A stretch of 50,552 nt of DNA from Acidimicrobiia bacterium (GTDB taxonomy: Bacteria > Actinomycetota > Acidimicrobiia > Spongiisociales > JAHEDJ01), in assembly GCA_029210695.1 (NCBI GenBank), contig JARGFH010000025.1:1-50552 (forward strand), read 5' to 3'. A program made the translations under genes and the position numbers. Position 1 is the stretch's first letter, and every line of letters starts with the position of its first letter. Shown here piece after piece: positions 4,028 to 22,377 of the stretch. The notes beneath the pieces are model-generated. The model made no database searches. It was not told the origin of the DNA and saw only the letters and a list, made by a program, of their open reading frames with translations.

Positions 4028-4070
4028 GCTCATAACCCGAAGGTCGAGGTTCAAATCCTACCCCCGCTAC
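4028..4070 (+). repeat. 3' part of initiator tRNA-fMet, copy 2 (att-like)
   Basis: Homology with copy 1 begins at GCTCATAACCCGAAGGTCG, at the anticodon loop, and runs through the T arm and acceptor 3' strand to GCTAC. One T is missing in the T stem (TCGAGG instead of TCGTAGG), and the bases before the anticodon loop are unrelated to tRNA. It is a non-functional scar. The repeat continues past the tRNA through the same terminator to about 4117. Confidence 0.75.
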
Positions 4071-4075
4071 GAACG

Positions 4076-4111
4076 AAGGCCCTGGTCAGAGCGTTTTCTG
4101 ACCGGGGCCTT
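4076..4111 (+). terminator. Hairpin terminator after tRNA copy 2
   Basis: AAGGCCCTGGTCAG pairs with CTGACCGGGGCCTT around AGCGTTTT. It is nearly identical to the hairpin at 61-96. Confidence 0.65.
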
Positions 4112-4544
4112 GTCGCGTTTCCGGTCGGCACCGAGCAGGTGTTCATGACCACTCACCTCGACGCTACGTCAAGCCTTCGGCCTTCCGTGTCCACGCAGAG
4201 GTGACTGTGGTCATGGACGGTCAGTACCGGAATGAAGACCGCCTTCTGCGTGCGTTTCAACAACGAACCCGACGAATTCGTCGACCCGCGTCTCGAGTAT
4301 CCGACGACCACCGATGGATCGATCTCGTGTGCGCGGGGCAGGTGTTCTGGTTGGTTCAGCAAGTGAAAGCGGGTGATCTCGTTGTCTATTGTTGGAGTGT
4401 CTCGAGGGCGAGGGGTTGGTGTTGTGCGTATCCACGAGGAACAGGCGCGGCACATATCCTGCAGGGACGATCCTGCGCTTCTCGCCTCGGGGATGATAGT
4501 GAGGTGGCTGCCAGTCCGATGACCGGCGGGAGGTTGAAGGTCTG
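4112..4544. other. Intergenic stretch before the SWIM gene
   Basis: No well-supported gene. A frame of 44 codons (ATG at 4232, stop ending 4366) begins MKTAFCVRFNNEPDEF and looks protein-like at first, but it has no good Shine-Dalgarno and no recognised family. It may be the start of a decayed gene. Confidence 0.3.
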
Positions 4545-9200: not shown

Positions 9201-10256
9201 TTATAGGACCAGATTGAATAGGAAACCGACCATCAGGATCCCAACTCCGACCACTCCGACGAAGACGCCGAGCAGGCGGGGTTTGAGGACCCGCCGTAAC
9301 AAGACCAGTTCCGGGACCGAGAGGGCGACCACCGACATCATGAACGCCAGGACCGTACCCAGGGCGAGGCCCTTGGCATAGAGGGCTTCGACCAAGGGCA
9401 GAATGCCGGCGGCGTTGGAGTAGAGGGGGATCCCGAGACCGACCGCTACCGGTACCGCCAGGGGATTGTCGGGTCCGGCGTACTCCACAAAGAACCCCTC
9501 CGGGACCCAGCCGTGGATGACGGCTCCGATCCCTATCCCCACCAACAGGTACGGCCAGATCTTTCGAATGATGGTCCGGACCTCTTCACGGGCGATAGCG
9601 AACCGGTCTGCCCAGCTCAAAGCAGTAGACATGTCGACGGGTTGGCCTCGAAGGGTTGTCTCGAAGACGAAGGGTTCCACCCACTTTTCGAGGCGGAGAC
9701 GGCCGATCACCCACCCGGCCACGATCGCCACCGCCAGTCCCGCGGTTACATAGAGGGCGGCGATCTTCCAACCGAACAGCCCGTACAGCAACACGATGGC
9801 GACTTCGTTGACCATTGGGCTGGCGATCAGGAAACTCATGGTGATACCCAAGGGAACTCCGGCTGCGACGAACCCGATGAATCCCGGTACCGCACTACAC
9901 GAGCAGAAGGGGGTGACCACCCCCAACCCGGCCGCAGCGATATTCCCAACCCCCTCGCGGCGGCCCCCCAGCAGAGCCCGGGTGCGTTCCACGCTCATGA
10001 AGCTCCGCAAAACGGTCACCGCGAAAATGATCCCGCCCAACAGCAGCAGTATCTTGACGGTGTCGTAGAAGAAGAACTCGACCGCCGAACCCCACCGGCT
10101 GACCGAATCGAACCCGGCCAGGTCGAAGACCGCCCACTCCCACAAAGACCTGTTCAGCTGATACGCCACCAGCCAGGCCCCAGCAGCGGCCAGCAACCCA
10201 CCCCACAGCCGCCACGGCGCACGCACGACCGGCGCAGACTGCAGGCCGGTGCTCAC
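9201..10256 (-). CDS. DUF318/ArsP-like metal(loid) permease
   Basis: A 351-residue integral membrane protein with about eight to ten hydrophobic segments. The first cytoplasm-facing helix pair ends in the family signature TPFCSCSAVPGF (Cys118 and Cys120), and the second half repeats the motif as GIPLYSNAAGILPL. This is the UPF0718 family that includes ArsP (organoarsenical efflux) and SO_0444-type efflux proteins. It starts with GTG overlapping the repressor's stop (GTGA). Given the Cys-rich ArsR upstream and the small thioredoxin downstream, export of arsenic compounds or a soft metal is likely. The substrate cannot be read from sequence alone. Confidence 0.8.
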   Translation of the reverse strand: MSTGLQSAPVVRAPWRLWGGLLAAAGAWLVAYQLNRSLWEWAVFDLAGFDSVSRWGSAVEFFFYDTVKILLLLGGIIFAVTVLRSFMSVERTRALLGGRREGVGNIAAAGLGVVTPFCSCSAVPGFIGFVAAGVPLGITMSFLIASPMVNEVAIVLLYGLFGWKIAALYVTAGLAVAIVAGWVIGRLRLEKWVEPFVFETTLRGQPVDMSTALSWADRFAIAREEVRTIIRKIWPYLLVGIGIGAVIHGWVPEGFFVEYAGPDNPLAVPVAVGLGIPLYSNAAGILPLVEALYAKGLALGTVLAFMMSVVALSVPELVLLRRVLKPRLLGVFVGVVGVGILMVGFLFNLVL

Positions 10257-10558
10257 CGCCCGCCCTCAACAAGCTCGGCAGGGAGGGACCCGCGCACCAG
10301 GTCAGCCGCCGCGTCTGCGAGCCGGTAGTCGACCCAGCGGCCCCGCTTGGAGGCTTCCACCAAACCGGCTTCCCGCAGCACCCGCAGGTGATAGGACAGC
10401 AGATTGGGGGCGACGTCGATGGTCTCCTGTAACTCGCACACACACTTCAAGCCGCAGGTCAGTTCGTCAAGGACCTGCAAACGGATCGGGTCCCCCAACG
10501 CCGAAAACAAGGTCGCCCGCTCTTCAAGCGTTGTTGATTCAAGAATCATTGAACTCAT
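10253..10558 (-). CDS. ArsR-family metalloregulator
   Basis: A 101-residue winged-helix repressor. Residues 35-41 carry TCGLKCVCEL, matching the alpha-3 metal site of ArsR-type sensors (ELCVCDL), with Cys35, Cys39 and Cys41. This favours As(III), Sb(III) or another thiophilic ion. The DNA-recognition helix is LLSYHLRVLREAGLV. The start is ATG at 10558; an internal ATG at 10549 is possible, and no strong Shine-Dalgarno is seen. It is first in the operon with the permease and thioredoxin. The early codons overlap the dyad GATTCAAGAATC (10536-10547), which could be part of its own operator. Confidence 0.85.
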   Translation of the reverse strand: MSSMILESTTLEERATLFSALGDPIRLQVLDELTCGLKCVCELQETIDVAPNLLSYHLRVLREAGLVEASKRGRWVDYRLADAAADLVRGSLPAELVEGGR

Positions 10559-10702
10559 AAGCACATTGTGACATGAGCACGGCCCAGCGGTTAGGGGCGA
10601 AGGTCCCGAATTGGCCACAGACCGGTGCCTGCAAGCCGCGGCCACCCCGGCAAAGGTCCATAGCGTGGTCTGCCCTGATGCAGTTGCAGAGGGGTCTTGC
10701 CA

Positions 10703-10855
10703 GACTCCCTTGTCGAGTTCTTCGATCTGGCCGCAACCGACAAGATGAGACCGGTGATTGCCGAACGCTTCCCTCTGCTCGAAGCCTCCCATGCCCACGA
10801 GTTCAGGGAGCGTGGCGGATATGCCGGCAAGGTGGTCTTGACCTCTGATGCCTGA
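10703..10855 (+). pseudogene. MDR alcohol dehydrogenase/quinone reductase, C-terminal remnant
   Basis: One frame reads through about 50 codons to a TGA at 10853. It includes KMRPVIAERFPLLEASHAHE and GGYAGKVVLTSDA, the typical C-terminal end of zinc-type or quinone-reductase MDR proteins (the 'EAHRALEssghxGKvVL' region). Upstream of about 10700 the homology stops and there is no start. It is a 3' stump left by a deletion or insertion between the ars operon and the YdeI-like gene. Confidence 0.65.
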
Positions 10856-10992
10856 CCGGATCTTGCTCTCCGAACCTGCATGCAAATCCGGCGGTCCAGA
10901 ACACCGGAACTGGCCGCAGGAACGGACTGGTAGCGAATCGCACAGAACGCCCAATATGCGCCGTATCGCCCGCCACTAGGGGCGCACCGCGG

Positions 10993-11601
10993 CTATGTAG
11001 AGCCGAGGGTTTCTCCCGACGAGAGCCTGCGGATGGTTTCTTCTATTCGGTTGGCACGGGCAGCCGGCCGTTTGGCGGTGTGAATCCACCACAGGTACTG
11101 CTTCTTGGCCGAGGCGTAAAGAGCCTGATAAGCGGCCCTAGCGGCCGGGGCGGCATCGAGGGCGGCTTGCAGATCAGCCGGGACAATCAGGGCATCGACC
11201 TGGTCGGTCTGAGACCACGAGCCGTCGGCCCTTGCCTCGTCGATCGTCGCCTGACCGACCTCGGTCATGAGTCCGTCGCGTACCAGCCGCTTGATCCGGT
11301 CCTTGTTGAGCGCCGACCACAAGCCGCCCTTTCGACGGGGGGAAAACCACTGCATCATTCGGTCGCCGTCAACGCGCCGGGATTGACTGTCGATCCACCC
11401 GAAGCACAGTGCTTCTTCGACCAGGTCGTCGTACACCGGACCGTCGAGGCTGCTCGACTTCTTGCGGTAAACGATCCACAGACCCTCTTGCCGGTCGGGG
11501 TTCGAAGCGAGCCAACTACGCCAGCCGGCACGGCTGACTGGCGCCATGACGTCTTTTCCATTCGGTGAAGGGGGATCCTCTAGGTCGGCGGTTCGTGTCA
11601 T
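10993..11601 (-). CDS. YdeI/OmpD-associated family protein
   Basis: About 202 residues. The family signature ALCFGWIDSQSRRVD and FSPRRKGGLWSALNKDRI lies in the first half. The C-terminal domain has PADLQAALDA and YLWWIHTAKRPAARANRIEE, typical of the OmdA/YdeI family linked to bacteriocin or stress protection in some species. The biochemical activity is unknown. I chose the ATG at 11601, which gives a usual family length; an ATG at 11655 is in frame and would add 18 residues. It stands alone, transcribed away from the CzrA-CDF pair. Confidence 0.75.
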   Translation of the reverse strand: MTRTADLEDPPSPNGKDVMAPVSRAGWRSWLASNPDRQEGLWIVYRKKSSSLDGPVYDDLVEEALCFGWIDSQSRRVDGDRMMQWFSPRRKGGLWSALNKDRIKRLVRDGLMTEVGQATIDEARADGSWSQTDQVDALIVPADLQAALDAAPAARAAYQALYASAKKQYLWWIHTAKRPAARANRIEETIRRLSSGETLGST

Positions 11602-11840
11602 CGCTACCGACCCTACGCCGAGGAAGGGGGAGCGGCGCACTTTGCGGTCGTCCATGATCGTCGGCCGTAGCTCGCCCCCGATGTCGAGGCGCCCGGAGAC
11701 GCCGTCGCGCAGGTCTCACTGGACGGCGTCAATGCTCGACCCGAGAGTCGATCGAACCAGCGTCCGGCGGAGGAGCGGTTCCATTCGCGGGCAAGGGGCG
11801 GCTGGACCGGTTCCAGCACCCGAGCGCACCGCTCATACAT

Positions 11841-11864
11841 CTGAATATCTGAGCTCGTATTCAG
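11841..11864. promoter_or_regulatory. Inverted repeat, probable CzrA-type operator
   Basis: CTGAATA and TATTCAG are perfect 7-bp arms around TCTGAGCTCG, giving a 24-bp dyad like the 12-2-12 operators of the SmtB/CzrA group. It is 133 bp from the repressor start, but only about 20 bp away if the MITE-like insert at 11868-11978 is left out. Confidence 0.45.
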
Positions 11865-11867
11865 GTG

Positions 11868-11978
11868 CTAGTGGTCCGTCGCGGATTTGGTGACTTGGTC
11901 TCCTGCCGGACGATCCCCGCTGTGGCAGGGTTCGTGGCACTGCCTACCCCGGTCATCAAATAGCAGACAGACCACTAG
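11868..11978. mobile_element. Small MITE-like element with terminal inverted repeats
   Basis: The left end CTAGTGGTCCGTCGCGGATT and the reverse complement of the right end, CTAGTGGTCTGTCTGCTATT, match at the 9 outermost bases and at about 23 of the first 30 positions (ATTTG and TGAC blocks included). The 111-bp unit has no coding capacity and an internal CCTGCC/GGCAGG stem. Such a structure fits a MITE or an IS remnant. It lies between an operator-like dyad and the repressor gene. Confidence 0.5.
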
Positions 11979-11996
11979 TGGCCATATTCTGCCCTG

Positions 11997-12356
11997 ATGA
12001 GCCAGTCGAGTGATACTTCTGATCTCAGCCACGATTCGAAGCCTGGTCGGTTGTTGGGACTCGACGATGCCCACTTGCTGGCGGAACGGTTCAAACTTCT
12101 GAGTGATTCAAGGCGGTTGCGCATCATCGACGCCCTGCTGGAGACAGGCGATATCTGCGTGAGCGATCTGGCCTGCCTGGTCGAAGCCAGCGAGTCGGTG
12201 ACCAGCCACCAACTCCGGCAGCTGCGGTTGGCCGGTCTGGTCCGGGCTCGTAAACGGGGCCGGGAGGTGTTCTATGGAGTCGCAGACACCCATGTGCGGT
12301 TGCTGCTCGACGTGGCAGTCGAACACTATCTGCACGGGCATGAGGAGCACCGATGA
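11997..12356 (+). CDS. SmtB/CzrA-type zinc-responsive repressor
   Basis: A 119-residue ArsR-superfamily winged-helix protein. The last helix has the exact alpha-5 metal site Asp97-x-His99-x10-His110-x2-His113, the pattern of CzrA and SmtB, which bind Zn(II) or Co(II) across the dimer. The alpha-3 region reads DICVSDLAC and lacks the full Cys set of arsenic sensors. The DNA-contact helix is SVTSHQLRQLRLAGLV. It overlaps the CDF exporter by 4 bases (ATGA), so repressor and exporter are one operon. There is no clear Shine-Dalgarno; CATATT just upstream could be a -10 element of a near-leaderless transcript. Confidence 0.9.
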   Translation: MSQSSDTSDLSHDSKPGRLLGLDDAHLLAERFKLLSDSRRLRIIDALLETGDICVSDLACLVEASESVTSHQLRQLRLAGLVRARKRGREVFYGVADTHVRLLLDVAVEHYLHGHEEHR

Positions 12357-13255
12357 GCGTTCCGCACACTCACGTCCCCCGGGCCGGGCGCCGTCATCTC
12401 CGCCCCTTGGCCATCGCTTTCCTACTCGTGGCGTCATTCATGGTGGTCGAGGCGGTGGCCGGGTTCCTGACTGGTTCGCTGGCGTTGATCTCCGACGCCG
12501 GGCACATGGCCACCGATGCCCTCGGCTTGGGAATGGCGTTAGCGGCGATCGTCGCCGGTGATCGGGCGCAGACCGGCAACGGACGAACCTACGGGCTGTA
12601 CCGGCTGGAGATCCTCGCCGCCCTCGCCAACGCGGTGCTGCTCTTCGCCGTGGCCGGCTACGTCATCTTCGAAGCCGTCCAACGGATCCAGGAGCCATCC
12701 GAAGTGCTGGCCACACCGATGCTGGTGGTGGCGGTCGCCGGCCTGGCGATCAATTTGATCGGTTGGAGGCTCCTCCGGTCGGGAGCAGAAGAGTCGATCA
12801 ACGTCAAGGGCGCCTACCTCGAGGTTCTGGCGGATCTCGCCGGTTCAGTGGGGGTGATCGTCGCCGCCCTGGTCATGATCCTCACCGGCTGGCCCTACGC
12901 AGATCCGCTCTTTGCCGCACTCATCGGGCTGTTCATCCTCCCCAGAGCGTGGAAGCTCGGACACCAGGCGCTTCGCATTCTCGTGCAGGCGGCACCGGCG
13001 GGCCTCGACCTCGACGAACTTCGTTCGGACCTCGCCTCGATCCCCGGCGTGGTCGACGTTCACGACCTCCACGTGTGGACCCTCACCTCTGAGATGGACG
13101 TTGCCACCGTCCACCTCATGATCGGCGAAGGAACGGAACCCCACCAGGTCCTCGACCGGGCGCGTTACCTGCTCGAGGATCGCCACGACATTGCTCACGC
13201 CACTCTCCAGGTGGAGCCGGACACCCACCAGGGCTGTTCCGAGATGAGCTGGTAA
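12353..13255 (+). CDS. CDF-family zinc/cation exporter (CzcD/ZitB-like)
   Basis: A 300-residue protein with six predicted membrane helices and a C-terminal cytoplasmic domain (VVDVHDLHVWTLT, HATLQVEP). The transport site in TM2 is intact: DAGHMATD with Asp48, His51 and Asp55. In TM5 the usual HxxxD reads ExxxD (YLEVLADLAGS, Glu157 and Asp161), so one zinc ligand is replaced by Glu. In the family this site sets metal selectivity. It is co-transcribed with the CzrA-like repressor and presumably exports Zn(II), Co(II) or a similar ion by proton exchange. A diverged C-terminal fragment of a sister gene lies at 519-890. Confidence 0.9.
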   Translation: MSVPHTHVPRAGRRHLRPLAIAFLLVASFMVVEAVAGFLTGSLALISDAGHMATDALGLGMALAAIVAGDRAQTGNGRTYGLYRLEILAALANAVLLFAVAGYVIFEAVQRIQEPSEVLATPMLVVAVAGLAINLIGWRLLRSGAEESINVKGAYLEVLADLAGSVGVIVAALVMILTGWPYADPLFAALIGLFILPRAWKLGHQALRILVQAAPAGLDLDELRSDLASIPGVVDVHDLHVWTLTSEMDVATVHLMIGEGTEPHQVLDRARYLLEDRHDIAHATLQVEPDTHQGCSEMSW

Positions 13256-13383
13256 TCAGGCTTACAGATTCACTGGATCAGCCGTCGGTTTTGGCTGCCG
13301 CCCGTGCTCACGGAGAGGCGATCGAAAACCGGGCGGGGGCCGCGACTGTACTCCGATTTGGGTGGCAGGCCCGATGTTGCCCC

Positions 13384-13416
13384 TTGACATTCCAGTCGAA
13401 TGGAAGGTGTATGGTG
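13384..13416 (+). promoter_or_regulatory. MerR-type promoter, box 1
   Basis: TTGACA is followed by the dyad TTCCA-N6-TGGAA lying in the spacer, and by GGTGTATGG as the -10 region with a spacer longer than 17 bp. The first 28 bases match the box at 22314 with a single difference. Overlong spacers holding a dyad are the hallmark of promoters activated by MerR-family metal sensors. Confidence 0.75.
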
Positions 13417-13421
13417 CTGGA

Positions 13422-13571
13422 GTGGCAAGTTCCCAACCTTCCCGATGGGTACGACGTACCGGTCGTGTTCGTTCCCGGCCAACCGGGCGAACCGATGTTG
13501 CCAAGTTTCCGTCTCGGGACACCGCCTTCGACACCGCGGTTGCCACCATCGACGATCGAAGAGGAGGATGA
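13422..13571 (+). CDS. Possible leaderless 49-aa ORF
   Basis: GTG at 13422 lies about where the MerR-type promoter would start transcription, so it could be read as a leaderless message. The frame runs 49 codons and its stop overlaps ATGACC just before the YHS gene, whose Shine-Dalgarno (GAGGAGG) lies within its last codons. The product is rich in Arg, Thr and Ser and matches no family I know. It could be a real small protein, a translational leader or noise. Confidence 0.3.
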   Translation: MASSQPSRWVRRTGRVRSRPTGRTDVAKFPSRDTAFDTAVATIDDRRGG

Positions 13572-13576
13572 CCATC

Positions 13577-13720
13577 GTGAAAGATCCTGTCTGTGGAATG
13601 GAAGTAGGAGAGGGAGCGATCCGCGTCGAGGGATATGACGACGTGGCCTTTTGCTGCGAACACTGCAAAAAGACCTTCCTTGCCGATCCGTCCGCCTATC
13701 TCAGCAAGGATCCCCACTGA
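13577..13720 (+). CDS. YHS-domain metal-binding protein
   Basis: A 47-residue protein that is almost entirely a YHS/TRASH-type domain: DPVCGMEV at the start and FCCEHCKKTF in the middle, with four cysteines able to bind a metal such as Cu(I). GTG at 13577 is nine bases from GAGGAGG; the ATG at 13568 in the same frame directly touches that site and is less likely. It is the first well-supported gene behind the MerR-type promoter, followed by a cupredoxin 21 bases later. Similar small YHS proteins often accompany copper ATPases and may act as cytosolic copper chaperones. Confidence 0.85.
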   Translation: MKDPVCGMEVGEGAIRVEGYDDVAFCCEHCKKTFLADPSAYLSKDPH

Positions 13721-13741
13721 GTTGACCGAAAGGAATTAACT

Positions 13742-14158
13742 GTGCGTTTAGCCAGAATGATGGTCGTGTTCGTGGTGTTGGTCATGAGCGCGGTGGCCTG
13801 CGGGGGTGGTGCTGCCCCGGAAGGCACCATCAAAGTGACGGCCTCGGACATGAAGATCGAAAGCAACTACACGACCTTCAAGGTTGGTGTTCCGTACCAT
13901 TTTGAAGTCACCAACGAAGGGGCGATTCCCCATGAGGTCATGCTGATCCAACCTATTGAGGGTGGGATGATGACCATGGAAGAGATGGACGCAATGGCCC
14001 GGGGCATGGTGGAGGCAGATGACCTTCCGTCCGGCGCGACGGCATCCTTCGATTACACCTTCACTTCGGCTGATGTGGGGACTCCTTTGGAGTTGTCGTG
14101 CCATGTTGAGGGTCACTACGAGGCGGGGATGTTCCTACCGATTACGGTCGAGGAATAG
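13742..14158 (+). CDS. Cupredoxin lipoprotein
   Basis: A 138-residue exported lipoprotein: signal peptide with lipobox VMSAVAC (Cys20), then a plastocyanin-like beta sandwich. The type 1 copper ligands can be read as His64 (IPHEVML), Cys120, His125 and Met130 (ELSC, four residues, H, four residues, M). Residues ~75-90 insert a Met-rich loop (GGMMTMEEMDAMARGM), which might bind extra Cu(I). The GTG start has AAAGGAA upstream. It sits between the YHS protein and two c-type cytochromes, so it may shuttle electrons or buffer copper at the outer face of the membrane. Confidence 0.88.
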   Translation: MRLARMMVVFVVLVMSAVACGGGAAPEGTIKVTASDMKIESNYTTFKVGVPYHFEVTNEGAIPHEVMLIQPIEGGMMTMEEMDAMARGMVEADDLPSGATASFDYTFTSADVGTPLELSCHVEGHYEAGMFLPITVEE

Positions 14159-14246
14159 AACCCTTCAGCTAATGGGGACCGGTGGGCGCTTCGGGTGGTT
14201 GTCCATCCGGAGTGTGGGGCGAGACCCGATCGAGCGAAGGAAAACC

Positions 14247-14645
14247 GTGCGGCGTACGACCCAGGGGTTGGCGGTCAGCGCGATGGCGATTGTCTTGGCA
14301 GGTTGCGGTGGCTCTGGTTCCGCCGTCGACATGGAGGTGTTGAATCAGGACCCCGGGTTGGTTGCCATCGGGGCTGACCTGTACGCCACGGCCTGTGCAA
14401 GCTGTCATGGTGATGACCTTCGAGGAACCGAGGAAGGTCCCTCTCACCTGTCGGAGGTTTATGAACCGAGCCATCACGCCGATGGGGCGTTCCTGTTGGC
14501 GGTCCGTCGTGGCGTTGCGCCGCATCATTGGTCGTTTGGGCCGATGCCGCCGGTCGAGGGTCTCACCGACGATGATGTCGAGGCGATCGTTGCGTTTGTG
14601 CGGGATGTCCAGGGTCGGGAGGGATTCGAGTCATACCCGCCCTAG
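14247..14645 (+). CDS. c-type cytochrome lipoprotein
   Basis: A 132-residue lipoprotein with lipobox VLAGC (Cys20). The single haem motif CASCH (Cys50, Cys53, His54) is followed by an axial Met candidate in FGPMPPVEG (Met100), the class I cytochrome c layout. GTG at 14247 is preceded by GAAGGAAAA; the longer upstream reading overlaps the cupredoxin and lacks a signal. The mature domain would lie on the outer face of the cytoplasmic membrane. It needs cytochrome c maturation, which the thioredoxin and CcdA genes at 17.7-20.7 kb could supply with reductant. A second similar cytochrome follows. Confidence 0.88.
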   Translation: MRRTTQGLAVSAMAIVLAGCGGSGSAVDMEVLNQDPGLVAIGADLYATACASCHGDDLRGTEEGPSHLSEVYEPSHHADGAFLLAVRRGVAPHHWSFGPMPPVEGLTDDDVEAIVAFVRDVQGREGFESYPP

Positions 14646-14671
14646 CGGGTAGGTTCGCATACCCTTGGTGC

Positions 14672-15166
14672 ATGCGAAGTGGGCTCTTGTTGGTGGTCGT
14701 TGCCGTGTTTTTGGTGTTGGCTGGGTGTTCGAGTGCGGCAGATACGACTACCACCTTCAGTTTGCCGGCCCTTCCGGGAAGCCCAACCGTGCCCGGGGGA
14801 GAGCCGTTGCGGGAGTTGGACTCGGATAAGATCGCGGCGGGCGAGGACCTTTACGCCGGTTTATGCGCCTCATGTCATGGCGCCGATCTGAAGGGTGATC
14901 CAGATTGGCAAGTGATGAACGCGGACGGCAGTTTCCCGCCACCTCCTCAGGACTCCTCCGGCCATACCTGGCATCACGGCGATGATCTTCTGGTCGAGAT
15001 CATCCTGACTGGCTCCGAGTTTCCCCAGAGCAGGATGCCGGCGTTTGCGGGTCAGGTAACCGAGGCAGAGGTTCTTTCGATCCTCGAGTTCTTCAAATCG
15101 ACGTGGGGTCCTCAGGAACGAACCCTCCAATGGGAGGTAACCCTCCGCGAGCGCGCTTCGTCCTGA
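14672..15166 (+). CDS. c-type cytochrome lipoprotein
   Basis: A 164-residue lipoprotein with lipobox VLAGC (Cys19), a Thr/Pro-rich linker, then a class I haem domain: CASCH at Cys65-His69 and axial Met candidate Met122 (SRMPAFAG). It resembles the preceding cytochrome in layout but has a longer linker and an added segment between the two haem ligands. It may pass electrons between the cupredoxin and a terminal acceptor not seen in the window. It could equally serve copper oxidation. The partner is inferred from gene order only. Confidence 0.88.
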   Translation: MRSGLLLVVVAVFLVLAGCSSAADTTTTFSLPALPGSPTVPGGEPLRELDSDKIAAGEDLYAGLCASCHGADLKGDPDWQVMNADGSFPPPPQDSSGHTWHHGDDLLVEIILTGSEFPQSRMPAFAGQVTEAEVLSILEFFKSTWGPQERTLQWEVTLRERASS

Positions 15167-15214
15167 CCAGGGCTTGGTCGAAGCCGGGTCGAGTGCCCAG
15201 CGGACTCAGGTTCA

Positions 15215-15233
15215 CCTTTATTGAAGCTTTACC
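15215..15233 (+). promoter_or_regulatory. Direct-repeat box 1, OmpR-type
   Basis: CCTTTATTGAAGCTTTACC contains CTTTA twice with an 11-bp period, as expected for an OmpR-family response regulator. It matches 17 of 19 bases of the box at 21773-21791 when both are read in the direction of the gene downstream. It lies about 110 bp before the Met-rich protein gene. Confidence 0.6.
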
Positions 15234-15341
15234 TGTGCCCACATCCTGTCGTGACCTTGATCAGTTTGTATGGCGCCAAGAACAGAAACAGATGGGGGCA
15301 CCTCAATGGGCGGCTCCCAGAATCAGGAGAGGAAGAATCAG

Positions 15342-15737
15342 ATGCGTAGGTCGATCTTTGTAGGTGTTGTCGTCGCAAGCCTGGTAGCGGTCGGTGCAGC
15401 TGTGGCACTGGCCCAGCAGCCGGACCAGGGAAGTAGCCAACTGGATGAGGGGCTGCGACCTCCCAACGAGATGTACTCGCCGATGGCCGAGAACTGGGAT
15501 GATATGCCCATGAACAGCGGCACTACTAGCGAGTGGATGTCCGGCAACTGGGATGAGATGCCCATGTTCGGCGGTTCGGGTGTGGTCGGGGAGGATTGGC
15601 AGCAGTTTCATGATGAGATGCATTCGTGGATGAGCGAGAACTGGAATGAGATACCGATGAACGGCGGTATTACCAGCGGCTGGATGTCCGGCAACTGGGA
15701 TGAGACGCCCATGCACGGCGGAGGCTTCAGCGGATAG
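15342..15737 (+). CDS. Exported Met/Trp-rich repeat protein, probable copper binder
   Basis: A 131-residue protein with a signal peptide (cleavage probably after VALA, residue ~24). The mature part has four copies of a 12-residue unit with consensus (S/E)xNW(D/N)(D/E)xPMx(G/S)G: ENWDDMPMNSG, GNWDEMPMFGG, ENWNEIPMNGG and GNWDETPMHGG. Each unit offers one or two Met, a Trp, an Asn and acidic residues, and a His-containing segment (WQQFHDEMHSWM) separates pairs. Met and Trp together are known Cu(I)/Ag(I) ligands in CusF-like proteins, but this repeat is not one I recognise. The start has AGGAGAGG upstream. An OmpR-type box precedes it and the two-component genes follow. Confidence 0.8.
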   Translation: MRRSIFVGVVVASLVAVGAAVALAQQPDQGSSQLDEGLRPPNEMYSPMAENWDDMPMNSGTTSEWMSGNWDEMPMFGGSGVVGEDWQQFHDEMHSWMSENWNEIPMNGGITSGWMSGNWDETPMHGGGFSG

Positions 15738-15810
15738 ATGGTGGATTGCCGAGGTGAAGGTGAGGTTGGTAGGTGACCTCACTGGCGGACCACTTGCCTA
15801 ATCCAGCGAA

Positions 15811-15843
15811 GGTAGGGGCGGACTCTCGCGAGCCGCCCCTACC
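15811..15843 (+). terminator. Strong hairpin between Met-rich gene and response regulator
   Basis: GGTAGGGGCGG and CCGCCCCTACC form a perfect 11-bp stem, extended by CTC/GAG around the loop TCGC. No T run follows. It ends only 9 bp before the regulator ATG, so it may terminate or attenuate transcription into the two-component genes. Confidence 0.6.
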
Positions 15844-15852
15844 ATATTGGGC

Positions 15853-16557
15853 ATGGAACGGCGAAGGGTCCTTATCATCGACGATGAGCGGGAGTTGCGC
15901 ACGATGCTCAGCTCCTATCTCCAGGCGGAGGGATTCGAAACCCTCGAGGCAGCCGACGGGCAGCAAGGCCTCGAGTCCGCAACGAAAACCGAACCCGACC
16001 TCATCGTCCTCGACGTGGGGCTTCCGGGAATCGACGGCTTCGAGGTGCTTCGCAGACTGCGGCAGCGTTCCGATGTGCCGGTGATCATGTTGACCGCCCG
16101 AGCCGAGGAAATGGACCGGGTGGTCGGGCTCACCGTCGGGGCCGACGACTATGTCACTAAACCGTTCAGTCCCCGGGAGGTTTCGGCTCGTATCACAGCC
16201 ATCCTCAGGCGGAGCTCGATGGCCATGCGGTCCTTGGATGATGCCGAGCCGGTGCTGCGCTTCGAAGGCTTAACGATCGATCCGGCCAGGCGGGAGGTGG
16301 TGCGTGACGGGATACCCGTCGAGATTTCGACTCTGGAGTTCGATCTGCTGGCCGCGTTGGCTACCTCACCCGGTCGAGTGTTCAGCCGCGAGCAGTTGAT
16401 GGAGAAGGTGTGGGGTTGGGATTACTTCGGTGTGGACCGGGTGGTAGACGTCCACGTGGTCAACATCCGCAAGGCGCTGGGCGACGACCCGGCACATCCT
16501 CGCTTTGTCGGTACGGTGCGTGGGGTCGGCTACAAGTTCGTGGGAGACCGGCTGTGA
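15853..16557 (+). CDS. OmpR-family response regulator
   Basis: A 234-residue protein: receiver domain (residues ~5-120) with acidic pocket IIDDE, phosphoacceptor Asp54 (IVLDVGLPG), Thr in MLTARAE and Lys in VTKPF; then an OmpR/PhoB-type winged helix ending in RFVGTVRGVGYKFV. ATG at 15853 was chosen; a TTG two codons upstream is possible. There is no Shine-Dalgarno, and the CATATT just before it could be a -10 element for a leaderless message. It overlaps the kinase gene by 4 bases (GTGA). It is the best candidate to bind the repeated CTTTA boxes at 15215 and 21773. Confidence 0.92.
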   Translation: MERRRVLIIDDERELRTMLSSYLQAEGFETLEAADGQQGLESATKTEPDLIVLDVGLPGIDGFEVLRRLRQRSDVPVIMLTARAEEMDRVVGLTVGADDYVTKPFSPREVSARITAILRRSSMAMRSLDDAEPVLRFEGLTIDPARREVVRDGIPVEISTLEFDLLAALATSPGRVFSREQLMEKVWGWDYFGVDRVVDVHVVNIRKALGDDPAHPRFVGTVRGVGYKFVGDRL

Positions 16558-17651
16558 AAGGCTGGTTCCGGAGTCTGCGAGTCCGGCTCTTGATCATGCA
16601 GCTGGCGGTGATCATTGTCGGGGTGGTGGCGCTGGTGGTGGTGATTGAGCCGCTGGCCAAGACTTTCTTTCAGGGTCACCTGGACACCATGAACCAGATG
16701 ATGGAGGGGATGATGGGCGACGTGCTGGCTCGTGACCTCGAGTCGGCCTTCGACAATTCGCTGGGGCGGTCGCTAGCCATCTCGGTGGCGGCCAGCACGG
16801 TGACCGCTCTGGCTTTGAGTGCGTTCGCTACCCGCCGGATTCTGGCCCCGCTCGACAGCGTTCGCGCCGCCTCCCGGCGGATGGCCGGCGGTTCGTACGG
16901 GGAGCGGGTGGCGGCCCCGTCGGAGGTCGAGTTGGCGGCTCTTGCCGATGATTTCAACGCGTTGGCGGAGGCATTAGACACAACCGAGCAGCGGCGGGTT
17001 CGTCTCATTTCTGAGATCGCTCATGAGCTGCGTACTCCCCTCACCACCGTCGAGGGATATTTGGAGGGGATGCTGGACGGTGTCTTCGAACCGAGCGAAG
17101 AGACCCTCGGGGCGTCCATTCGCGAGGTTCGCCGGATCAAGCGGCTGGCCGATGACCTGTCGCTGTTGTCGAAGACCGAGGAAGCGGTCCAACCTCTCAA
17201 TCCGGTCGAACTTGATGTTGCAGCGCTGTCCGCGGAGGCCGCCGACCGGCTCCGCCCGCAGTTCGAGGCAGAGGCGATCGACCTGGTGGTTGACGCAGCC
17301 GCCGGTCTGATGGTTCGGGCCGACCCCGACCGGATAACTCAGGTGCTCACCAATATCCTCGGCAATGCTCTCGCTTACACCCCGGAGGGAGGCTCGGTGC
17401 GGGTCGAGGCAACAGCACAGGACGGGATGGCGCTGGTTCGAGTCATCGATAGCGGCAAGGGGTTGACGGCCGAGCAGCGTGAGGCGGTGTTCGAGCGCTT
17501 CTACCGGGTCGACCCGACCGCGCCCGGAGGCTCTGGGATCGGTCTGACGATCGCCCGAAGTATCGCCCGACGCCACGGCGGTGAGGTGCACGCCGAATCG
17601 GCGGGACCGGGCCGAGGTTCGACCTTCACCCTCCGTATTCCGATCGCCTGA
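16554..17651 (+). CDS. Sensor histidine kinase with Met-rich sensor loop
   Basis: A 365-residue membrane kinase. Two membrane helices (about 12-32 and 72-92) flank a short extracytoplasmic loop holding MNQMMEGMMGD: Met46, 49, 50, 53 and 54, a cluster able to bind Cu(I) or Ag(I). A HAMP domain follows, then a dimerisation helix with His157 (SEIAHELRTPLTT), and a catalytic domain with N box (NILGNALAY), DSGKGL and GGSGIGLTI. The GTG start overlaps the response regulator stop. Short loops are usual for CusS-like sensors of periplasmic stress. Copper sensing is my inference from the Met cluster and the copper genes around it. Confidence 0.9.
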   Translation: MKGWFRSLRVRLLIMQLAVIIVGVVALVVVIEPLAKTFFQGHLDTMNQMMEGMMGDVLARDLESAFDNSLGRSLAISVAASTVTALALSAFATRRILAPLDSVRAASRRMAGGSYGERVAAPSEVELAALADDFNALAEALDTTEQRRVRLISEIAHELRTPLTTVEGYLEGMLDGVFEPSEETLGASIREVRRIKRLADDLSLLSKTEEAVQPLNPVELDVAALSAEAADRLRPQFEAEAIDLVVDAAAGLMVRADPDRITQVLTNILGNALAYTPEGGSVRVEATAQDGMALVRVIDSGKGLTAEQREAVFERFYRVDPTAPGGSGIGLTIARSIARRHGGEVHAESAGPGRGSTFTLRIPIA

Positions 17652-17711
17652 CGCCGCCGGGGCGGGGCCAGGCAATACCTACGGGCCGCGGCACCCCTGT
17701 CTTGGATCCGA

Positions 17712-18362
17712 TTAGCTGCCGGGTGCCGGCTGAACGGGGTCGGTCTCGAGGGAATCCGGAGCCCGGCCGGCGAGCATGTCGTCGAGGACGGCCGCCAGTG
17801 CGGCAAAGGTTGATTCGCCGCTGATCTTGGCCACCACCACACCTTCTCGGTCGATGAAGAAGGTCTCCGGTATCCCGTAGACTCCGTAATCCACCCCCAG
17901 CCGTGATCCCTCGTCGACCACATTTGGATAACCCCGGCCGAGTTCGTTGAGGAAGGCAATTGCGTCTCCGAGTTCGTCCTGAAACACGACGCCGACAAGT
18001 CGGGCGCCTTGCTCGCGGTAGGCGTTGGCGGCGGCCAACAGGTCGTCGTGTTCTTGCCGGCAGCCGACGCACCACGACGCCCAGAAGTTGAGTACGACGA
18101 TCTGACCTCGCAACTCCGAGAGCGAGAGCTGCCCTTCTTGTTCGAGGAAGGGGAGGGTCGCATCCGGGCTGGGTTTGCCGATGAGGGGGGATTCGACCAG
18201 ACGGGGGTCTTTGCCGAAGCGGCTCCCCAAGACGACACCGAGCGCCAGCGTCAACGCGACAAAGGAGAACACGGCCAGCCGGAGGCCCCACCGTCTCTTT
18301 GAACGCGTAGCAGCCGCATCTCTGGTCGTTTGTTCCATATCTGTGAGGAGTTCACTGCTCAT
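17712..18362 (-). CDS. TlpA/ResA-like membrane-anchored thioredoxin
   Basis: A 216-residue protein with one N-terminal membrane anchor (about 28-46) and an extracytoplasmic thioredoxin domain. The active site is NFWASWCVGC (Cys98 and Cys101) and the cis-Pro loop is YGIPETFFID. Proteins of this group reduce apocytochrome c or other exported thiols, receiving electrons from a CcdA partner. That partner is the next gene upstream, 64 bases away. It is the last gene of the seven-gene minus-strand operon. The ATG at 18362 has GAAGGA upstream; an internal ATG at 18338 is less likely. Confidence 0.88.
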   Translation of the reverse strand: MSSELLTDMEQTTRDAAATRSKRRWGLRLAVFSFVALTLALGVVLGSRFGKDPRLVESPLIGKPSPDATLPFLEQEGQLSLSELRGQIVVLNFWASWCVGCRQEHDDLLAAANAYREQGARLVGVVFQDELGDAIAFLNELGRGYPNVVDEGSRLGVDYGVYGIPETFFIDREGVVVAKISGESTFAALAAVLDDMLAGRAPDSLETDPVQPAPGS

Positions 18363-18426
18363 AGGGTCTCGTCCTTCAGAGTCATGTCGTACCGGGCTGG
18401 TGGTTTGACGGGTCACATCGATGCCT

Positions 18427-19152
18427 TCAGATGGGCGGCCAGCCGAGCCGCGCAAAGGTGCGTTGCAAGGGGATGAAGATGGATTGCCAGATCCCGGTGG
18501 TGAAGAGCACCCCGACGATGATCAGCATGCTGCCGCCTGCCAGCTCGATGCGGCGACCATTGCGCCGCAACCAGTCCAGGGTTGAGTGGGCCTTCTGGAA
18601 CCAGACTGCCGCCAGCACGAAGGGGATGCCGAGACCAAGGGAATACAGCATGAGCAGGGCGGCTCCCCAGCCTGCGGTCTGGGTGGCGCCGGCGATGGCG
18701 AGGATGGTGCCGAGGATCGGCCCGATACACGGGGTCCAACCGAAACCAAACGCCAATCCCAGGGGAAATGCAGAACCGGGACCGCGAGCTATTCGCCCGA
18801 GATCGAAGCGCCGTTCCCGTTGGAAACCGGGGAGTCTGAACCAGCCGATCATGGCCGCCCCCATGGCAATGATCCCCAGGCCGGCGATCCTGGTGATGGT
18901 ATCGGCGTTGCGTAGGAGCAGCGATCCGACCAGCGCGAAACCGGCCCCCAACGCGGTGAATACCACCGTGAAACCGGCCACGAACAGCAGCGATGCTCGC
19001 AGGGCGGTTCGCTTTGCCTGTGCCGTTCCCAGTTCGGGTACAGGGAGGGCGGTGATGTAGGAGATGTAGCCGGGTATGAGCGGCAGCACACAAGGCGAGC
19101 TGACCGACACGAAACCGGCGACGACTGCTAGAAGGGGGAGCGCAAAATCCAT
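18427..19152 (-). CDS. CcdA-type thiol electron carrier
   Basis: A 241-residue membrane protein with six helices. Cys21 (SVSSPCVLPLIPGY) and Cys142 (FGWTPCIGPILG) are the two redox cysteines of the CcdA/DsbD beta-domain fold, which moves reducing power from cytosolic thioredoxin across the membrane. The start ATG at 19152 gives the standard family N-terminus. It is placed between two exported thioredoxin-fold genes (redoxin upstream, TlpA-like downstream), its probable electron acceptors, and is likely to support maturation of the two cytochromes c encoded on the other strand. Confidence 0.9.
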   Translation of the reverse strand: MDFALPLLAVVAGFVSVSSPCVLPLIPGYISYITALPVPELGTAQAKRTALRASLLFVAGFTVVFTALGAGFALVGSLLLRNADTITRIAGLGIIAMGAAMIGWFRLPGFQRERRFDLGRIARGPGSAFPLGLAFGFGWTPCIGPILGTILAIAGATQTAGWGAALLMLYSLGLGIPFVLAAVWFQKAHSTLDWLRRNGRRIELAGGSMLIIVGVLFTTGIWQSIFIPLQRTFARLGWPPI

Positions 19153-19210
19153 GAAAGGCAAGCTCTGTCGGAGTCGCGGTCGGGCGCAATGTGTGGCATC
19201 TTCGGCCGGC

Positions 19211-19822
19211 TCACAATCCCGGAACCTCCGCCAGGAACTCCTCAGCGGAAACGAACATGGTGGCGTAATGCTTGACCCACTTGACCTCCCCGTCAGTGCC
19301 GACCAGGGCGAAGCTGTGGCTGGGGCGATCGCTGTGCCCGTAGACACCCAGCATCTCGTAGGCGTTGGAGACCGAGCGGTCCTCGTCGATCAGGATCGGA
19401 TCGACGATGCCAAACCGGACGCTCTCGTCTGCGACCATCTGGGCCGGGTCGACCATGACCGGAACGAGGGTGACCCCCCGGGCGGCGAGGGTCTCGTCGA
19501 TCTCGGAGATCTGCGCAAAGCATCCATCGCAGCCAACCCCCATCGAGAAGTAGAGCATCGCTTCATTGCCCCCCGCCAGGACCTGATCGAGGGTCACCTC
19601 GGTACTTGCTGAGGTGGGCAACGCGAAGCCGGGGGCTTCGCTTCCCAGCAGGCCGTGCTGAGGTTCGAAGGTGGAAACTCCTATCGCCACCAGCAATCCG
19701 ATGGTCAGCAGTGGTGCTGCGAAACCCAGCCACGCCCAGCGACGGGATGTGCGCTTTGATGTCGTGCTCTTGGTGGGGGTGCGCATAGTGGTGCTTGTCT
19801 GCAGTTTCGTGGGTCGGCTCAT
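19211..19822 (-). CDS. Membrane-anchored redoxin with CDGC site
   Basis: A 203-residue protein. A Thr/Ser/Lys-rich cytosolic start is followed by one membrane helix (about 30-50) and an AhpC/TSA-like redoxin domain. It has GVGCDGC (Cys98 and Cys101) where the peroxiredoxin or thioredoxin site lies, then LVPVMVDPAQMVADE and PSHSFALVGTDGEVKWVKHY. ATG at 19822 has GGAGGG upstream. The first 260 bases also lie inside the open frame of the upstream DsbD-like gene, read in a different phase. The role is probably thiol-disulfide exchange outside the membrane. Confidence 0.8.
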   Translation of the reverse strand: MSRPTKLQTSTTMRTPTKSTTSKRTSRRWAWLGFAAPLLTIGLLVAIGVSTFEPQHGLLGSEAPGFALPTSASTEVTLDQVLAGGNEAMLYFSMGVGCDGCFAQISEIDETLAARGVTLVPVMVDPAQMVADESVRFGIVDPILIDEDRSVSNAYEMLGVYGHSDRPSHSFALVGTDGEVKWVKHYATMFVSAEEFLAEVPGL

Positions 19823-20711
19823 GGCAACTCCCTCCAGTTTCGTTTTGTTCGACTCGACGTCGGCGTCCGGAGATCGCCACGGCGGCAATAGCGATGCCCA
19901 CCAACCCCATGCCGACCGCCAGGTCGGGTATGGGTTCCATCCATCTGACCACCGGCATGAGGAGGTCTTCGATCCACACTCCGATACCGGCCTGGAAGGT
20001 GGGGGCGATGGACTCACCGGTGAACGAGACCACGAACAGGACGATCCCCATCACCGCGAACAGCCCGGCGGAGACCAGATTGATGGTGTTGGTGGTGAAA
20101 GTCCGCCCGGCCAGGCTCCATTGGACTTCCCGACCGCGAAAGGCTGGGCGGTCGCCCAGCCCGAGACGGTCCCAGAGGACGGTCATAACGAGGAGAGGAA
20201 AGACCATCCCGAACACGTAGGTGAGGCCGATGGCCACACCTTGGGTGAGGCTGGGGGCGATGGCCGACATGGTCAGTACTCCTGCCAGTACCGGGGCGCA
20301 GCAAGCGCTGGCCGCCCCGGAGAAGACCCCGAGAGCAAAGATCCCGCCCGAGTCGGTGCGTTGGATGTCCGGGGCGCCGCGCAGCATCGGCAACGCCCAG
20401 CTGACCCCCATCGCCGAGATGACCGCCAAACCCAGCAGCAGCACCCCGCCGAGGAAATAGATCGGTCCGTGGAACTGGAGCAGCGACCGGGTGAGGAAAC
20501 CGATGCCAAGGGTCACCGGCACCAGCACCACGGCGATCCCCGCCGCGAAGACCAGGGTGAGGGGCACCAGCCGCCAGCGGCGATTTCTCACCGCGGCGGC
20601 CAGGTAGGCGGGGAACATGAACACGATGCAACAGGGAGCGAAGAGCGCCACCCCGCCGGCGACGAAGGCCGCGAATAGCGACCCGCCGAAGAAGATACCT
20701 TCCACGATCAT
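19563..20711 (-). CDS. DsbD/CcdA-like membrane protein with long C-tail
   Basis: A 382-residue reading. The first ~295 residues form a six- to seven-helix membrane protein with the double-cysteine motifs FAPCCIVFMFP (Cys27, Cys28) and ASACCAPVLAG (Cys137, Cys138), a divergent relative of CcdA/DsbD. After the last helix the frame continues for ~85 residues through a His-rich piece (HETADKHHYAHPHQEH) that overlaps the next gene in another phase. The true stop may have been lost by a frameshift near 19830. Start: ATG 20711 overlaps the glutaredoxin-like gene (ATGA); a GTG at 20705 with GGGGAGGA six bases before it is the alternative. Confidence 0.75.
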   Translation of the reverse strand: MIVEGIFFGGSLFAAFVAGGVALFAPCCIVFMFPAYLAAAVRNRRWRLVPLTLVFAAGIAVVLVPVTLGIGFLTRSLLQFHGPIYFLGGVLLLGLAVISAMGVSWALPMLRGAPDIQRTDSGGIFALGVFSGAASACCAPVLAGVLTMSAIAPSLTQGVAIGLTYVFGMVFPLLVMTVLWDRLGLGDRPAFRGREVQWSLAGRTFTTNTINLVSAGLFAVMGIVLFVVSFTGESIAPTFQAGIGVWIEDLLMPVVRWMEPIPDLAVGMGLVGIAIAAVAISGRRRRVEQNETGGSCHEPTHETADKHHYAHPHQEHDIKAHIPSLGVAGFRSTTADHRIAGGDRSFHLRTSARPAGKRSPRLRVAHLSKYRGDPRSGPGGGQ

Positions 20712-21025
20712 TCCTCCCCATCGACGAGCCGGGTGAGGGCCCGGGTCAGCTTGCGTTCCGAGATGCGCCCGTGGGCGTGGTATTGGCCGTCGATAAGAAG
20801 AACCGGCGGGAACGGAACCCGAAAGCGTCGGGCGAGTTCGACGCCTTCGGGGCTGGTCAGGTCGATCCGCTCGATGCTGAGCGGGAACCGCTGTCCGAGG
20901 TTGCCGAGCAACTGGTCTGCTTCCCGACAGAAGTGACAACCCGCACTCGTCACCAGCTTCAGATGAATACTCAGGTCACCGGATGCTGGTTGGCCGGTCG
21001 GGGCGGGTGACGATGCTGTGGTCAC
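20708..21025 (-). CDS. Glutaredoxin-like protein
   Basis: A 105-residue thioredoxin-fold protein with site AGCHFC (Cys30 and Cys33) after the first strand, the conserved cis-Pro region RVPFPPVLLIDG and a C-terminal helix. There is no signal peptide, so it acts in the cytosol, where it could deliver electrons to the DsbD-like membrane protein encoded next. GTG at 21025 overlaps the cupredoxin stop (GTGA). Confidence 0.82.
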   Translation of the reverse strand: MTTASSPAPTGQPASGDLSIHLKLVTSAGCHFCREADQLLGNLGQRFPLSIERIDLTSPEGVELARRFRVPFPPVLLIDGQYHAHGRISERKLTRALTRLVDGEE

Positions 21026-21483
21026 GGTTCCGCCACCGTCAGCGTGCCGCGCATCCCGGCGTTTGCGTGTCCCGGGTAGGTGCAGACGATCGAGAAGGTT
21101 CCCGGTCCGGTGGGGGTGAACCCGACCGTCGAGCTTTGCCCCGGCCGTGCCTCGATGTGAACGTCGAGGTCGGCCACCGAGAGATCGTGGGGAACCGATC
21201 CGCTGTTCACCAAGGTCAGATTGACCGGCTGACCCGAGGTAACTGTGATCTCAGTAGGAGAGAAGGCGAAATCGGTAGCGGTGATCTCCACCTCTGCCGC
21301 TCCCCGGATCGGCGAGTCCGTTCCGGAGCCTTCCCATCCACCCATCATTGGGCCCATCATTGAGTCATGCCAGGACCCCAGGTGGGTTCCCGAGCCCGGT
21401 CCGGTCATCACCCCACCCACCAGGGCGGCGGTCACCAGGATCAGGCCGGCGATAAGCAGCCGACTTTCGTGGATCCGGGTCAT
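21022..21483 (-). CDS. Membrane-anchored cupredoxin
   Basis: A 153-residue protein with an N-terminal membrane anchor (about 9-26), a Met/Trp/His-rich linker (WHDSMMGPMMGGW, residues ~38-50) and a C-terminal cupredoxin domain. Copper ligands appear as His99 (SVPHDLSV), Cys134, His139 and Met144 (CTYPGHANAGM). The linker resembles the Met clusters in the kinase loop and the Met-rich repeat protein, which suggests extra Cu(I) sites. It overlaps the SHOCT gene by 4 bases and the glutaredoxin-like gene by 4. Confidence 0.85.
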   Translation of the reverse strand: MTRIHESRLLIAGLILVTAALVGGVMTGPGSGTHLGSWHDSMMGPMMGGWEGSGTDSPIRGAAEVEITATDFAFSPTEITVTSGQPVNLTLVNSGSVPHDLSVADLDVHIEARPGQSSTVGFTPTGPGTFSIVCTYPGHANAGMRGTLTVAEP

Positions 21484-21704
21484 GATCGCGTGAGTTCGCG
21501 GCGTCGCTCGGCCAGTTCGGTGGCGTCGATCTCACCGCGAGCGAACCGCTCCTCGAGGATCTCGAGGGCGCTGCTACCCCTCTGGGATTGCCCGCCGCTC
21601 GGTACGAACCGTACGGCCCAGACGATCAGCAGCACGACCCCTACCCAGAACAGCACCATCCATAAACCACCCAGCCAGCTTCCGGTTCCCCATCCCCACA
21701 TCAT
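21480..21704 (-). CDS. Small SHOCT-domain membrane protein
   Basis: A 74-residue protein with one membrane helix (FWVGVVLLIVWAVRFV) after a Trp/Gly-rich start (MMWGWGTGSW), and a C-terminal SHOCT motif (ALEILEERFARGEIDATELAERRREL). SHOCT domains are short helical modules often at the ends of membrane proteins. ATG at 21704 has GGAGA about eight bases upstream. It is the first gene of the seven-gene copper-redox operon, behind the OmpR-type box at 21773. Confidence 0.82.
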   Translation of the reverse strand: MMWGWGTGSWLGGLWMVLFWVGVVLLIVWAVRFVPSGGQSQRGSSALEILEERFARGEIDATELAERRRELTRS

Positions 21705-21772
21705 CGTGTCGTCTCCTAGATCGGATTCGCACGTATCCAAGCGAGCGCGGGTCAAGGCACGATTCGGTTCTG

Positions 21773-21791
21773 GGTAAAGCTTCTGTAAAGG
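21773..21791 (-). promoter_or_regulatory. Direct-repeat box 2, OmpR-type
   Basis: Read towards the minus-strand operon the box is CCTTTACAGAAGCTTTACC, equal to the box at 15215 except for two central bases. CTTTA is repeated with an 11-bp period. It lies about 70 bp before the SHOCT gene. Confidence 0.6.
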
Positions 21792-21839
21792 CCACCTCGG
21801 CAGCTTGTTGAAGGATGTCGTACTCGGCGAGGTGTCTGC

Positions 21840-22298
21840 TCAGTGCCGGTGTGGAGTCGGCGCCCCGTGTAGCTCGGCTCCCGTCTCTGCCGTTAACGAT
21901 TTGCGGGGGGCGATGGTCTGGCATCGGTGGGGGTCCGTGCAATCGGCCGGGTCGAGCGCTTGCCCACGTTCGATCATGGTCTCCAGTTCCAGGCGGGTCT
22001 TCTGGAGGACGGCGATGCGGGTATCGAGGTCGCGGAGATGATGCTTCAACAGACCGAGGACATGTTGGCAGGTGGAGGCGCCCTGTTCCCGCAGCTCGAG
22101 GACCGAAGTGATCTCCTCCAGGGTGAGACCCGTTGCCTGCGCTTCTCTGATGAACCGCAATCGCTCAACTGCGTCGTGGTGGTATGCCCGGTACCCGTTC
22201 GGCGCTCGCTCGGCGGGGGGCAGCACCCCTACGTCTTCGTAGAAGCGGATGGTTTTGGTGTTCACCCCGGTTGCCTGGGCCAGTTGACCGATCTGCAT
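21840..22298 (-). CDS. MerR-family metal-responsive regulator
   Basis: A 152-residue protein. The N-terminal winged helix (MQIGQLAQATGVNTKTIRFYE, split as MQIGQLAQATG and NTKTIRFYE, with NGYRAY wing) is typical of heavy-metal MerR proteins. A dimerisation helix follows. Metal ligands are likely Cys77 (STCQHV), Cys120 and Cys126 (ADCTDPHRC), with His79 and His124 nearby. Cys77 is shared with MerR, ZntR, PbrR and CadR rather than CueR, so the metal is not certain from the site alone. It is divergent from the P1B ATPase and probably controls both MerR-type promoters (22314 and 13384). Confidence 0.88.
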   Translation of the reverse strand: MQIGQLAQATGVNTKTIRFYEDVGVLPPAERAPNGYRAYHHDAVERLRFIREAQATGLTLEEITSVLELREQGASTCQHVLGLLKHHLRDLDTRIAVLQKTRLELETMIERGQALDPADCTDPHRCQTIAPRKSLTAETGAELHGAPTPHRH

Positions 22299-22313
22299 GA
22301 TTGGGAATTTTAC

Positions 22314-22345
22314 TTGACATTCCAGTCGGATGGAAGGTGTAGAAA
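22314..22345 (+). promoter_or_regulatory. MerR-type promoter, box 2
   Basis: TTGACA, the dyad TTCCA-N6-TGGAA, then TAGAAA as -10 with a 20-bp spacer. It lies between the divergent merR-like gene and the ATPase gene, and is almost identical to the promoter at 13384. Confidence 0.8.
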
Positions 22346-22377
22346 GGTACAATCGACCACGAACCTTGGAACCAAAG

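Follow-up and report, generated by a model that had tools for sequence, protein, structure and literature searches.

A candidate Cu(I)/Ag(I) sponge: a Met/Trp-rich repeat protein encoded beside a Met-loop sensor kinase in an Acidimicrobiia genome

Background

Several described systems resemble the locus analyzed here. SilE and PcoE, the metal binding of which has been measured, were described as first-line metal sponges (PMC7558416, PMC5008109), and the transcript of silE is separate from that of silRS (PMC5008109). CopM of Synechocystis is an exported, Met-rich protein that binds copper and is encoded in copMRS (PMC4335983). CusF folds into an OB barrel with a single Cu(I)/Ag(I) site containing His, Met, and Trp, of which the Trp was proposed to shield Cu(I) against oxidation (PMC7558416). 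On the sensor side, CusS senses periplasmic copper via sites that include Met (PMC10100754).

In this work, we analyzed a 50,552-nucleotide stretch of DNA from an Acidimicrobiia genome (the window), in which a gene for a Met/Trp-rich repeat protein precedes the genes for a response regulator (RR) and a histidine kinase (HK) with a Met-rich loop. The repeat protein is probably a disordered, secreted sponge that is induced by this two-component system and would bind Cu(I)/Ag(I). This best reading rests on synteny with Met-loop kinases, on positional equivalents in relatives, and on a shared operator, and not on composition alone.

Results

Gene and architecture of the repeat protein

The features of the locus are collected in Table 1. 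The ATG of the repeat gene is preceded by a Shine-Dalgarno-like sequence, AGGAGAGGAAG, at positions 15325-15335. As an earlier, sequence-only reading of this DNA had claimed, the translation begins with a signal peptide-like stretch, which is basic and hydrophobic (MRRSIFVGVVVASLVAVGAAVALAQ), and the protein is predicted to be secreted. The same reading had reported four units of the form NW(D/N)(D/E)xPMxGG; four are present (NWDDMPMNSG, NWDEMPMFGG, NWNEIPMNGG, and NWDETPMHGG), although the first of them ends in SG and not in GG. The pattern NW[DN][DE]xPM is observed four times, whereas none of 100,000 shuffled versions of the mature sequence contained it more than once. Past residue 25, the remaining 106 residues include 12 Met, 8 Trp, 18 Asp/Glu, 3 His, 1 Arg, and no Cys.

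Table 1. Features of the repeat protein locus and of its presumed regulon in the window
Feature	Position	Strand	Basis
Operator-like box, CTTTAT-N5-CTTTAC then CCTTGA	15216..15260	+	One of only two in the genome; kept in relatives
Gene for Met/Trp-rich repeat protein, predicted to be secreted, 131 aa	15342..15737	+	Translation; no Pfam match; pLDDT 49 model
Repeat module A, two NW units	15443..15574	+	132-nt direct repeat
Repeat module B, two NW units	15590..15721	+	77% identical to module A
Intercistronic hairpin between repeat gene and regulator	15811..15843	+	Region folding z -4.4
TACCAT, -10-like, 7 nt 5' of regulator ATG, leaderless-type start	15840..15845	+	TANNNT survey
OmpR-type response regulator	15853..16557	+	Response_reg, Trans_reg_C
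HAMP sensor histidine kinase with short Met-rich extracytoplasmic loop, HLDTMNQMMEGMMGDV	16500..17651	+	Domains; loop alignment; clade
Cupredoxin with Met-containing N-terminus, presumed regulon member	21022..21483	-	Pfam
SHOCT-type small membrane protein, presumed regulon member	21480..21755	-	Match below Pfam cut-off
Second box copy, 5' of SHOCT-cupredoxin operon	21752..21790	-	Motif search

The four units represent a duplicated two-unit module, the copies of which form a 132-nt direct repeat at a spacing of 147 nt and with 77% identity; the sequence-only reading had missed this duplication at the module level. The modules differ by a dN of 0.26 and a dS of 0.50, which, at the few sites available, hints at coding constraint. 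The structure prediction proposed by the earlier reading was carried out with AlphaFold2 on the single sequence and yielded a mean pLDDT of 49 with no confident fold. Such a low-confidence single-sequence model is consistent with a protein that is probably disordered.

Search for sequence relatives

The assertion that the repeat is unlike known families held in all of the databases searched. The protein had no match in Pfam at E 1, and a sequence search of the PDB, a tblastn search against plasmids, and a search of viral contigs gave no match or relative. A peptide-pattern search of the genome contigs of 85,000 species genomes likewise found no relative, and the motif GRNAAYTGGRAYGANAYNCCNATG gave 19 matches in genome contigs, about the estimated chance number, none of them within a repeat. 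No convincing relative was found among 59 relatives, 395 genomes of the class, and 138 genomes of the order; three weak matches in class genomes (E 1e-4 to 4e-3), which sit within open frames of 538-569 aa, were set aside. In Pfam and NCBIfam, the only match obtained was to the NCBIfam Bfi1 immunity protein; it scored 22 bits where the cut-off is 100, had no significant single stretch, and was dismissed as an effect of repeat bias. By these searches, the NWDExPM-type unit is an orphan known from one genome only.

The sensor pair, the box, and the transcript layout

The extracytoplasmic loop of the adjacent kinase comprises about 35 aa and holds no obvious docking domain. Genes for a Met-loop kinase, cupredoxins, and cytochromes had been said to surround the repeat gene, and we found this kinase, two cytochromes c, and one clear and one weak cupredoxin. 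The region 9201-24429 constitutes a metal/redox island, which includes an ArsP-type permease, a cation-efflux protein, a YHS protein, cytochromes c, DsbD- and thioredoxin-like proteins, a MerR regulator, and a P-type ATPase. No efflux pump is adjacent to the repeat gene, the closest P-type ATPase beginning at 22330.

The box upstream of the repeat gene reads CTTTATTGAAGCTTTACC...CCTTGA and contains two CTTTAY half-sites 11 bp apart, followed by a -35-like CTTGA. A half-site spacing of 11 bp is usual for OmpR-type regulators. The combination of CTTTAY-N5-CTTTAC and CTTGA occurs twice in the window and was absent from shuffled sequences; in the whole 3.9-Mb genome, the box has exactly two sites, both of them in the window and 6.5 kb apart. 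The start of the SHOCT gene behind the second copy is probably internal, near 21704, 76 nt past the box. In 0.69 Mb comprising the loci of the relatives and the window, a looser form of the box was found 15 times where 0.1 would be expected, in almost every case directly 5' of SHOCT or Met-protein genes. The exact form is present in only 1 of 58 relatives, and the box sequence therefore appears to drift between lineages. The sequence-only reading had taken the box to be dedicated to the repeat gene; the box itself is real, but it is common to the SHOCT-cupredoxin operon and to operons of the relatives. The best reading of the box is an operator common to a regulon; the adjacent regulator would bind it, and the repeat gene is very likely under the control of the adjacent copper-type sensor pair.

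A strong hairpin lies downstream of the repeat gene, ahead of the regulator, and hairpins occur at the equivalent place in most relatives. The motif TANNNT stands 5-8 nt ahead of the regulator start in 40 of 53 loci, against 0.9% in the control. In positions 15811-15855 and in the 53 related loci, it is usually located at the end of a strong hairpin. A sigma-70-type promoter and a canonical terminator were looked for, and neither was found. This layout suggests that the RR-HK pair may have its own leaderless promoter, separate from the repeat gene, which would allow the sponge to be made in bulk while the sensor is kept low.

Positional equivalents in relatives

Related loci were gathered by a search with the neighbouring kinase, and the genes around each kinase were then read. 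In many relatives, a small secreted Met-rich protein, usually repetitive, is encoded immediately 5' of the response regulator, and its gene often follows one for a SHOCT-type small membrane protein. The units of these proteins are lineage-specific and include WMEQMHESMWGADG, SYDWMNEMHDYMWNG, MDSEDWDSMMGPNG, MDTQMANMMGSN, DHETLMNGHMGG, and DHMGTMGDMTTM. Among the 38 informative loci, defined by at least 450 nt of upstream sequence, a secreted Met-rich protein is present 5' of 18 of the 22 kinases with a Met loop (at least two Met in the extracytoplasmic loop) and of none of the 16 Met-poor kinases. The statistics for this pairing (Fisher 2e-7, Spearman 0.69) ignore descent and are thus inflated. 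Of the four exceptions, three have a different secreted protein at this place: L084 and L098 encode a cupredoxin whose N-terminus contains Met, and L083 encodes a thioredoxin-like protein. The upstream stretch of the fourth, L078, has no clear candidate. A kinase tree from which the loop was left out shows six changes of the Met protein and three of the loop, and there are only three supported independent pairs of loop and sponge, with none contradicting. The window protein belongs to a recurrent positional class in which a secreted Met-rich protein is followed by the RR and a Met-loop HK. No paper describing this class was found in the open literature searched, which does not prove that none exists elsewhere.

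The window kinase falls into a clade of seven with 100/100 support. The other six members (L071, L073, L074, L076, L077, and L125) have Met/Trp proteins of the WMxxMHxxMWG type at the same position, and the box precedes several of their genes. These proteins are similar to the window protein in their position before the RR-HK pair, signal-peptide-like start, acidity, and richness in Met and Trp, whereas the repeat unit differs. Homology between the two units was considered and rejected (PSSM shuffle p 0.16; hhalign aligned the signal peptide only), and an order-wide profile search with the WMxxMHxxMWG family matched a genus-type copy on contig C96 of the same genome and not the window gene. 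As the link at the unit level is unsupported, we claim positional equivalence and not homology. The copy on C96 (L071, oriented positions 1-150) is part of a second sponge-RR-HK locus with a genus-type WMNQMHDSIWND unit, the sponge of which is truncated by the contig end.

Further variants were seen elsewhere. On two Streptomyces plasmids, a Met/His-tailed secreted protein is encoded 5' of the RR and a Met-loop kinase, and on a plasmid of Deinococcus gobiensis, a related kinase, whose own loop is not particularly Met-rich, adjoins a DUF305 protein and a copper ATPase. In L149 (G008:C9, oriented positions 3940-4450), a WMTEMHDSVWGPDG protein with near-perfect tandem repeats has an imperfect half-box, AGAAGCTTTA, upstream, and no RR-HK pair is adjacent in the stretch read. 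Other kinases of the same family have different neighbours. In L072, on contig C4 of the same genome, a secreted protein with DxDGDGVxD calcium-type repeats is encoded 5' of the RR-HK pair with a Met-poor kinase loop. In L107, a secreted 259-aa protein, which we take to resemble ferritin-like DUF2202, lies about 90-870 nt 5' of the RR, and the kinase is Met-poor. In L111-L114, secreted Gln/Thr/Gly-rich proteins are encoded 5' of the RR, and the loops of the kinases are Gly-rich and Met-free.

Discussion

In the mechanism that we propose, the Met-loop kinase would sense extracytoplasmic Cu(I) and/or Ag(I) and phosphorylate the response regulator, which would bind the tandem CTTTAY-N5-CTTTAC box and switch on both the repeat gene and the SHOCT-cupredoxin operon. 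Once exported, the repeat protein would take up the ions via its Met thioethers, while its Trp residues would shield Cu(I) and its acidic groups would attract cations, and this uptake would buffer the extracytoplasmic side and feed back on the sensor by damping it. The kinase and regulator would be expressed apart, from their own promoter behind the hairpin. Besides the synteny, the positional equivalents, and the box, the sponge reading is favoured by the enrichment in Met and Trp behind a signal-peptide-like start, by the lack of a confident fold, and by the DUF305 and copper ATPase neighbours of the related Deinococcus kinase. Four points speak against the sponge reading: the unit is an orphan, the pairing of loop and protein is confounded by descent, His residues are few, and no efflux pump is adjacent.

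The repeat protein might instead act mainly in signalling, contacting the Met loop of the kinase according to its metal load and thereby setting the threshold of the sensor. Accessory proteins of the CpxP/ZraP type serve as the model for such a role. The gene adjoins the RR-HK pair, the Met content of the loop and that of its partner match, and SilE has been proposed to take part in signalling to SilS (PMC5008109). However, the kinase loop of about 35 aa shows no obvious docking domain, the lack of conservation of the unit would be expected of a buffer more than of a binding partner, and the repeat protein of G008:C9, with its imperfect half-box, has no adjacent kinase in the stretch read; we regard a mainly signalling protein as unlikely. 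Somewhat less probable still is a sacrificial Met antioxidant or a cell-surface protein, co-regulated with the cytochromes and cupredoxins, for which metal binding would be incidental. Met and Trp are easily oxidised, and genes for cytochromes c and for thioredoxin-like and DsbD-like proteins are close by, but the box is common to the SHOCT-cupredoxin operon, and the linked kinases have Met loops and not redox domains. That the open reading frame at 15342-15737 is spurious or a decaying, functionless repeat is highly improbable: no search gave a sequence relative and the dN/dS of the duplicates is about 0.5 at few sites, but the frame has a ribosome-binding site, a signal-peptide-like start, an in-frame duplication, a place ahead of the regulator that is conserved, and a box copy of its own.

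If the sponge reading is true, sponges beside copper sensors are selected for chemistry and not for sequence. Under such selection, homology searches would miss sponges, which could be found by the combination of position, box, and Met-loop kinase. The pairing of sensor and neighbour would also let the ligand of a sensor be guessed from the neighbouring gene, and the Trp-rich unit is a simple candidate for a Cu(I)/Ag(I)-binding peptide. A broader proposal, possible but doubtful at present, is that the secreted buffer, regulator, and sensor form a general module in this bacterial class. The sequence of the buffer would be replaced almost freely while its chemistry matches the loop (Met for copper, the calcium-type DxDGDGVxD in L072), and NWDExPM would be a newly arisen Met/Trp version.

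Comparison with known systems

The sequence-only reading had invoked the Met and Trp chemistry of CusF-type Cu(I) binding. CusF is a folded one-site barrel, to which the window protein corresponds only in its Met and Trp, and the functional kin of the window protein would rather be SilE, PcoE, and CopM; membership in the CusF family was rejected, as neither a CusF match in Pfam nor a sequence match in the PDB was obtained. Like SilE and PcoE, which are disordered without metal, the window protein is small, Met-rich, predicted to be exported, and encoded beside an RR-HK pair (PMC5008109; PMC7558416), and the repeat gene may be transcribed apart from the pair in the same way as silE is transcribed apart from silRS (PMC5008109). 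In contrast, ten His are conserved in SilE and PcoE, and NW-PM units are absent from both, whereas the window protein has 3 His and 8 Trp (PMC5008109; PMC7558416). Membership in the SilE/PcoE family was rejected given these His counts, the lack of a Pfam match at E 1, and only a sub-threshold, unrelated NCBIfam match.

With CopM, the locus shares the order of an exported Met-rich protein, an RR, and an HK (PMC4335983). CopM has two DUF305 domains and shares an operon with copRS, whereas the window protein has no such domain, which excludes it from this family by Pfam, and the locus has an intervening hairpin and a putative second promoter (PMC4335983). Judged by analogy, the window protein is best read as one that is no sequence member of these families and that would work like SilE, PcoE, and CopM.
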